A DNA stretch of 64,000 nucleotides from Azohydromonas caseinilytica. GTDB lineage: Bacteria > Pseudomonadota > Gammaproteobacteria > Burkholderiales > Burkholderiaceae_C. Position numbers and translations under genes: made by a program. The stretch spans positions 290,801 to 354,800 of the forward strand of contig NZ_JABBFW010000002.1 of assembly GCF_012927045.1 (NCBI RefSeq), read 5' to 3'. Positions 11,166-11,337 of the stretch are shown here, piece by piece. The first letter of the stretch is position 1, and the number at the start of each line of letters is the position of its first letter. The notes below the pieces were generated by a model. That model was given only the letters and a program-made list of their open reading frames with translations. It did no database searches and was not told the origin of the DNA.

Positions 11166-11171
11166 TATATT
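11166..11171 (+). promoter_or_regulatory. -10 element of the leucine leader promoter
   Basis: TATATT is centred 9 bases before the leader ATG. Transcription would then begin at or within a base or two of the ATG, giving a leaderless leader peptide; no Shine-Dalgarno is visible before the ATG. No good -35 hexamer is seen. Confidence 0.5.
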
Positions 11172-11177
11172 GGTTCG

Positions 11178-11234
11178 ATGTCGTCCCGCCGCGCTTTTTC
11201 GCTACTGCTTCTAGGAGTGCCGCGGGCGCGCTGA
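11178..11234 (+). CDS. Leucine-rich leader peptide of the leuA attenuator
   Basis: An 18-codon ORF encoding [18 protein letters not shown]. It has four consecutive Leu codons CTA-CTG-CTT-CTA at 11202-11213. Two of the four are CUA, a codon almost absent from the surrounding GC-rich genes; the tRNA-Leu(UAG) that reads it is encoded in this window at 20284. The peptide is followed after 26 bases by a rho-independent terminator and then by leuA. This is the textbook layout of ribosome-mediated transcription attenuation: stalling at Leu codons when Leu-tRNA is scarce would prevent terminator formation. The peptide was recognised by reading the sequence and has no known homologue that I can name. 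Confidence 0.85.
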
Positions 11235-11259
11235 TCGACTTCGTCCCTACCTACGGATC

Positions 11260-11300
11260 AACGGCCCGCCAGCGTCTCGCAGCGGGCCGTTTGCATTTTT
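11260..11300 (+). terminator. Attenuator terminator upstream of leuA
   Basis: ACGGCCCGC (11261-11269) pairs perfectly with GCGGGCCGT (11282-11290), with one more A-T pair outside and a 12-base loop. TTTGCATTTTT follows. The start codon of leuA is 38 bases downstream, so this terminator must be bypassed for leuA expression. Competing pairings seen upstream: GCGGGC (11222-11227, in the leader peptide) could pair with GCCCGC of the left arm, and TGATC/GATCA (11232-11236/11256-11260) could form a small upstream hairpin. Confidence 0.88.
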
Positions 11301-11337
11301 CCGTGGCTGCGAGTCTTCGTTTTCCCAGGAGATCCCG

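Follow-up and report, generated by a model that had tools for sequence, protein, structure and literature searches.

Locus and gene neighbourhood

The window, that is the whole stretch of 64,000 nucleotides of Azohydromonas caseinilytica that was analysed, carries in order ilvB, ilvH, ilvC, a pssA-like gene, a long-form leuA and a short-form leuA, with a short leucine-rich leader and a hairpin between the pssA-like gene and the first leuA (Table 1). The product of the pssA-like gene falls just short of its cut-off (106.5 bits, cut-off 107). The two LeuA proteins belong to different NCBIfam types, the first being leuA_yeast-type and the second leuA_bact-type, and the closest named relative found was Azohydromonas aeria, with a LeuA 91% identical. 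The two leuA genes are separated by 13 nt and are probably co-transcribed. A simple terminator scan detected no terminator between them; given this and the short gap, joint control of the second leuA by the leader is plausible.

Table 1. Features of the leuA leader and the genes downstream (window coordinates)
Feature	Position	Strand	Sequence or evidence
Extended -10 promoter element	11163..11171	+	TGCTATATT; sequence; kept in relatives
Leader peptide, 18 sense codons (ATG at 11178, TGA at 11232-11234), predicted leaderless	11178..11234	+	sequence; counterpart in 150/152 unique loci
Region 1:2 hairpin (11182-11198 with 11213-11230), candidate pause/protector, enclosing the Leu codons	11182..11230	+	minimum-energy fold of leader
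Control codons CTA CTG CTT CTA	11202..11213	+	sequence
Region 2, antiterminator 5' side (GCGGGC core 11222-11227, then UGAUC across the stop codon)	11219..11236	+	
Region 3, antiterminator 3' side (11260-11269 also forming the terminator 5' arm)	11256..11273	+	folds
Terminator 5' arm	11260-11269	+	AACGGCCCGC; pairs with GCGGGCCGTT, 10 bp
Terminator loop and first arm bases, pairing with region 5	11276..11283	+	CTCGCAGC
Terminator 3' arm	11282-11291	+	GCGGGCCGTT, then TGCATTTTT to 11300
Region 4, terminator 3' arm (11282-11291) and T-rich tail	11282..11300	+	fold; core in 97/110 leuA upstream regions
Region 5, 24 nt before the leuA ATG	11306..11313	+	GCTGCGAG; complementarity, covariation
SD-like AGGAGA of long-form leuA	11327-11332	+	
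leuA, long form (2-isopropylmalate synthase, 563 aa)	11338..13029	+	TIGR00970 760 bits, cut-off 697
leuA, short form (513 aa)	13043..14584	+	TIGR00973 696 bits, cut-off 599

Several further elements were observed in the window. A terminator-like hairpin followed by a T run lies at 6430-6455, 5' of the ilvB ORF listed at 6488, and is a possible candidate for a second attenuator, that of the ilv genes. A tRNA-Leu with the anticodon TAG, the reader of CUA, is encoded at 20284-20370, and a match to the group II intron family (RF00029) at 20156-20231 ends 52 nt before it. A sucA RNA motif (RF01070, 82 bits) was found at 46703-46786.

Leader peptide and promoter

An earlier first-pass annotation of this DNA described an 18-codon ORF with four leucine codons in a row, and both the ORF and the codons are present as described. 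Four consecutive leucines are found in three of the 304 ATG-started ORFs of 9-30 codons on the two strands of the window; the leader is one of these, and the other two lie elsewhere, one inside the other. In the 6.65-Mb genome there are 3 occurrences of CTACTNCTNCTA, whereas the backward reading of this pattern is found 48 times. The annotation had also noted that CTA is rare in neighbouring genes, which is borne out by a count of 3 CTA codons among 1711 leucine codons in 46 window ORFs of at least 200 codons, selected also by third-position GC and possibly including some that are not genes.

For comparison, 179 loci were screened for a GGCCCG...GGGCC core that is followed by 5 or more T within 12 bases and, further on, by a leuA motif; 162 passed and 10 duplicates were dropped, leaving 152 unique loci, a locus that is a copy of L001 (L083) having been excluded beforehand. 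L091, a locus with family label f10, belongs to the set. In 150 of the 152 the stem is preceded by a leader ORF that starts with ATG and encodes 15-21 amino acids, 17-19 in 143 of the 150. The leader of each locus was taken as the candidate ORF closest to 18 codons (among those of 10-32 codons with at least 2 leucines and a stop 10-70 nt before the stem), so that this length is favoured in the counts. At least three leucines fall within four codons in 147 of the 150 leaders and the longest uninterrupted run reaches at least three in 113. Two forms are common, M..ISLALLLSPHGRRR and M... with 11 further residues, in a listing to which L019 contributed no ATG leader.

All 150 leaders use CTA, 146 of them two or more times, and the codon makes up 335 of their 650 leucine codons. 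Part of this bias could come from RNA pairing of CUA with the region of a UAG stop codon. As a sole explanation such pairing is weakened by the 35 leaders ending in TGA, in which CTA is as common as overall (78 of 151 leucine codons).

Upstream of the leader, 92 of 95 loci carry an extended -10 element of the form TGnTAnnnT or TGnTTnnnT that ends 6-10 nt before the ATG; L103 was left out of this count and L083 kept in it. The distance is 6 nt in 18 loci, 7 in 38, 8 in 3, 9 in 6 and 10 in 27. For both this count and the alignment described below, an in-frame ATG further upstream was set by hand as the leader start of L059, L073, L075 and L093. Transcription starts about 7 nt past a -10 element, which places the predicted start at or adjoining the leader ATG. 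An SD-like motif was found before the ATG in 1 of the 92 loci with a -10 element, the only ones in which it was counted. With so short a distance between the -10 element and the ATG and almost no SD-like motifs, the leader mRNA is probably leaderless. The range of 11166-11337 given for the attenuator in the first-pass annotation was accurate, and the attenuator also requires the extended -10 box. A simple promoter scan of window positions 5800-14000 returned no -35/-10 promoter, and no -35 element was seen. Two inverted repeats of C runs and G runs lie at 11134-11160, directly 5' of the promoter, with similar ones in the Azohydromonas relatives L001 and L082-L084.

Terminator and antiterminator

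The GC stem and T run that had been placed within 26 bases of the ORF correspond to a 10-bp stem beginning 25 nt after the leader stop codon, followed by leuA at 11338. The predicted fold of 11259-11300 has a free energy of -22.8 kcal/mol (z -4.9) and none of 200 shuffled sequences was as stable. The T tract of the window is interrupted (TTTGCATTTTT). The simple terminator scan, confined to loops of 3-8 nt, did not list this hairpin; among the 152 loci of the comparison, a criterion admitting loops up to 16 nt finds the terminator in 150, and a limit of 9 nt recovers only 67. Conservation of the terminator was not counted on these loci because they had been chosen for its core. The core is present in 97 of 110 leuA upstream regions, a count that includes the window's own copy and the duplicate L083 and in which one of the 13 negatives (L076) is without upstream sequence.

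The 5' arm of the terminator is also complementary to a segment that ends just past the leader stop codon. The antiterminator is made of GCGGGC with GCCCGC, then CG with CG and UGAUC with GAUCA, and the predicted fold of 11215-11275 has a free energy of -22.3 kcal/mol, a stability that is by itself not unusual (52 of 200 shuffles were as stable). When region 4 was omitted from the fold, region 3 paired upstream in 57 of 58 representatives. A region 2 of the CGGGC type is recognisable in 141 of the 152 loci and absent from 11. The outer pair of the helix is A-U in 102 of the 141, G-C in 9 and mismatched in 30, and no A-C or G-U exchange was found there. In an alignment of 58 rows not fitted to the structure, from which L083, L103 and near-duplicates had been removed, the 2:3 helix is 81% paired, with no double changes and no covariation. 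The antiterminator helix is present and partly covaries, the covariation being confined to the outer pair. The hairpin of regions 1 and 2, a candidate protector or pause hairpin, appears in the minimum-energy fold of the window leader and in a consensus fold.

Folded up to the T tract with region 2 free, all 141 leaders have the 3:4 terminator as their minimum-energy state. Since the terminator wins thermodynamically even then, antitermination would have to be kinetic, the antiterminator forming first, as is typical of textbook attenuators. By the usual ribosome footprints, a ribosome held on the first leucine codons should leave the RNA from 11219 onwards free.

A fifth region pairing with the terminator loop

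The loop of the terminator, with the first bases of the 3' arm, is complementary to a fifth region between the T tract and the SD-like motif of leuA. Across the loci the partner site lies 8-70 nt past the terminator stem, and loop and partner differ between lineages yet remain complementary, as in the pairs ACCAGCAAC/GTTGCTGGT, ATCCGCAAC/GTTGCGGAT and GCAACCCGC/GCGGGTTGC. At a threshold of score 19 and a length of at least 7, the pairing was found in 102 of 116 loci with a long-form leuA and in 23 of 36 with a short-form leuA. Score 19 alone is passed by 73% of cognate pairs, but also by 17% of non-cognate ones. In a permutation test on 67 distinct terminator sequences the mean cognate score was 20.42, against 15.65 (sd 0.38) for permuted partners, and none of 20000 permutations reached the cognate value. 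The result stands after the commonest loop type is dropped (52 sequences left), and three control windows located 100-362 nt past the stem gave no pairing effect.

The unfitted 58-row alignment has changes on both sides at 6 of the 8 pairs. The loop helix is paired in 88% of cells, its outermost pair failing in 14 rows; terminator and loop helix taken jointly are 93.5% paired, a value that falls to at most 46% when the partners are slid along the alignment. In the window the 10-bp terminator stem and six of the pairs (11276-11281 with 11308-11313) can both be present in an H-type pseudoknot, whose connecting loops would measure 6 and 16 nt. As a plain hairpin, the pairing of loop and region 5 is not unusually stable in the window, 109 of 200 shuffles being as stable. 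The pairing covaries strongly, and could be made as a pseudoknot, or as a hairpin when region 2 holds region 3.

RNA polymerase reaches region 5 only once it has passed the T tract, and any effect of the region would therefore be expected in read-through RNA alone. One candidate role, that pairing of region 4 with region 5 locks the read-through state thermodynamically, was rejected: with 60 nt of downstream sequence, 10 of 141 folds switched to 2:3 plus 4:5, and the other 131 stayed in the 3:4 state, by a method that does not model pseudoknots. A structure acting on the finished leuA mRNA, through its stability or through access to the start, is put forward with low confidence. To our knowledge, a fifth pairing region has no place in the textbook model of attenuation.

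Distribution

In the window's family, a covariance model built from 58 sequences gave matches at E<=0.001 in 174 of 200 genomes, representing 126 of 141 genera; the genome of the window itself and some that had supplied model sequences are counted here. For 8 of the 174 the best E-value is above 1e-6, and these may be terminators only. A second match in the window's own genome (C34, E 5e-5) proved to be a similar terminator after a flagellin-like gene and nothing more.

The first-pass annotation had tied the leader to the long-form leuA. That association is correct for the window and does not hold for all relatives, since the 152 unique loci comprise 116 with a long-form and 36 with a short-form leuA downstream. 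Likewise, at 30 loci of the best family matches leuA follows directly after the element in every case (22 long, 8 short), with a pssA motif upstream in 26. With either form downstream and pssA upstream, the element belongs to the interval between pssA and leuA and not to one kind of LeuA.

Outside the family matches are few. Among 150 genomes of the order, 11 matched at E<=0.001, four of them from the window's family; two of family label f10 gave strong full-length matches (1.7e-12 and 6e-16), and five others were weak (4e-5 to 6e-4). Of 229 genomes of the class, 17 matched at E<=0.01, three being in the window's family, and among the 15 matches listed for the other 14 none is better than 1e-5 and 10 are partial. 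The strong matches under label f10 indicate that the element does not belong exclusively to one family.

Regulatory mechanism

The annotation had proposed ribosome-mediated attenuation on the strength of the layout, and the comparison supports it well, through the near-universal leader ORF, the spread of the covariance model in the family and the antiterminator. The alignment of relatives that had been suggested as a check gave the expected contrast, the leucine run, CTA bias, terminator and antiterminator being conserved while the rest of the leader and the spacer diverge. A run of codons for the end product stands before a gene of its own pathway, followed by a 3:4 terminator and a 2:3 antiterminator that excludes it. 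Judged from sequence, the element is very probably a leucine-specific, ribosome-mediated transcription attenuator before leuA.

While the ORF, its codons, the terminator and the two further complementarities (2:3 and loop to region 5) are established by comparing sequences, from their arrangement we infer a transcription start, stalling, read-through and an effect of leucine as follows. Transcription would start at or adjoining the leader ATG, and a ribosome would begin on the leaderless message. When leucyl-tRNA is charged, above all the tRNA-Leu(UAG) needed for the rare CUA, the ribosome would reach the stop codon and cover region 2, region 3 would pair with region 4 and transcription would stop before leuA. 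When leucyl-tRNA is short, the ribosome would stall on the CUA-containing leucine run and leave region 2 free; the antiterminator of regions 2 and 3 would then form ahead of the synthesis of region 4, and transcription would continue into leuA and probably into the second leuA as well. In RNA read through in this way, the loop and the 3' arm of the terminator could pair with region 5 as a pseudoknot or hairpin.

A terminator closing an ilv-pssA operon would sit at the very place where the hairpin is found, between pssA and leuA, and the hairpin might be no more than this, with the leader ORF an accident and leuA served by a simple promoter of its own. This is very unlikely, as in relatives the hairpin is preceded by a promoter-like element (92/95) and a leucine-rich ORF (150/152), an antiterminator overlaps it, and an ORF arising by chance would not be expected to keep CTA in every leader. 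A slightly better case, though still an improbable one, can be made for a leucine leader that acts mainly on the translation or stability of leuA mRNA through the loop and region 5, with termination secondary. The strong covariation of this pairing and the closeness of region 5 to the leuA ATG speak for it, as does the pseudoknot proposed for an actinobacterial leuA leader in the available text of PMC1262725. The conservation of a strong intrinsic terminator with its T tract argues against it, as do the reach of region 5 in the window, which extends to neither the SD-like sequence nor the start codon, and the 27 of 152 loci in which the pairing is missed at the threshold used (14/116 long-form, 13/36 short-form).

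The same complementarity would serve equally in trans, the terminated leader RNA being a small RNA whose loop pairs with region 5 of leuA mRNA, and rhizobia have attenuator RNAs that act in trans. A copy in trans would, on the other hand, have to compete with the loop that each leuA mRNA from this promoter carries in cis, and the cis loop should prevail; the trans-acting reading is given hardly any weight.

Relation to known leaders

Ribosome-mediated attenuation has long been known from leu operons. In the leuL leader of Escherichia coli and Salmonella the four leucine codons are adjacent and include the rare CUA. According to the available text of PMC6123439, the leu operon of Escherichia coli and Salmonella has a leader peptide (leuL) with four leucines, an antiterminator/terminator switch and leuA downstream, all of which are shared with the present element. 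The window leader differs in its length of 18 amino acids rather than 28 (compared without alignment), in its predicted leaderless start, in having no Rfam match and in its covarying fifth region. The same text, citing a survey of 2004, reports that putative leaders occur across various Gram-negative species.

The LEU element of Actinobacteria combines a leader ORF bearing a leucine run, a leuA target and a proposed pseudoknot, at the base of which the leucine run was proposed to pair with the leuA SD; the available text gives no terminator for leuA (PMC1262725). The window element has a clear intrinsic terminator, and its pseudoknot-type pairing joins the terminator loop to a site upstream of the SD. 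A stem of leucine run and SD as described in that text was absent from the folds made of the window leader, which place the leucine codons within the 1:2 hairpin and join the loop to region 5 and not to the SD.

Leader peptides on leaderless messages are also found in attenuators of Actinobacteria and Sinorhizobium. These resemble the present leader in having the start codon at or near the 5' end of the transcript, and belong to other lineages and mostly to other operons. We know of no pairing of loop and region 5 in them.

Rfam (release 15) at the gathering score assigned no family to 11166-11337, and at a relaxed cut-off (E<=5) the sole match in 10900-11500 was to PhotoRC-I, with 14 bits and on the opposite strand. 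In five relatives the leuA element was likewise unmatched, the only match being the ilvH RNA (RF02993) elsewhere in the cluster. In the Variovorax relative (L035) this motif lies at 1209-1276 (91 bits), in the same cluster approximately 2.7 kb upstream of leuA; in the window no match to it was obtained, including at a relaxed E-value over 8250-8560. The ilvH RNA is also cis-regulatory and named for a gene of branched-chain amino acids, but it is a different motif, far from the leuA start.

A search of titles and abstract openings in the open literature found no description of a betaproteobacterial leuA leader, the 2004 survey of proteobacterial attenuators and a 2017 survey of structured RNAs lying outside its scope. 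The main text of a survey of premature terminators (PMC2965389) mentions neither leuA nor leucine. The mechanism is therefore old and the variant, although widespread, was not found described; its new points, which also go beyond the earlier annotation, are the putative leaderless leader and the fifth pairing region.

A leucine attenuator would be present in most sampled genera (126/141) of a very large bacterial family. The invariable use of CUA in its leaders offers an unusually clean natural experiment on the sensing of a rare codon. Attenuation theory centres on how ribosome and RNA polymerase stay in step, which with a leaderless start would become a question of leaderless initiation. The covarying pairing of loop and region 5, outside the textbook model, is testable with simple reporters.

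Leucine leaders in other families of the order

Short-form leuA loci outside family label f1 were sampled from 90 of 128 genomes with such a gene, 6 of the 90 upstream regions being unplaceable and dropped. Leader ORFs with a leucine cluster near the C-terminus were found at 42 of 80 loci. At 36 of them the ATG has a -10-like element 4-11 nt in front of it, and at 32 the leader also has LLLR near its end ('...GLLLRPAR' type). The same three criteria gave 0, 0 and 0 of 80 in the reverse complements and averages of 3.0, 0.6 and 0 in ten dinucleotide-shuffle sets. The 32 loci of the LLLR type span 20 of 43 family labels, examples being L125, L126, L134, L148, L152, L165 and L181, among others.

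In these leaders CTG accounts for 176 of 309 leucine codons and CTA for 21. An intrinsic terminator, with loops up to 16 nt allowed, was found in 1 of the 42 (L156). In the 25 nt that follow the stop, C makes up 42% and G 13%. These leaders are candidates for leucine control that is perhaps Rho-dependent or translational. It is possible, although at present doubtful, that the Betaproteobacteria share an old leaderless leucine leader that has come to serve two mechanisms. In the window's family it would be a terminator attenuator, to which a pseudoknot-forming fifth region adds a post-transcriptional layer; in many other families it would be the '...GLLLRPAR' leader, usually terminator-less and C-rich and G-poor after the stop, with the same codons acting through Rho or translation. 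Two loci outside the leader filter, L121 and L124, have a leucine-rich ORF followed by a T-run terminator, so that the terminator-less pattern has exceptions.
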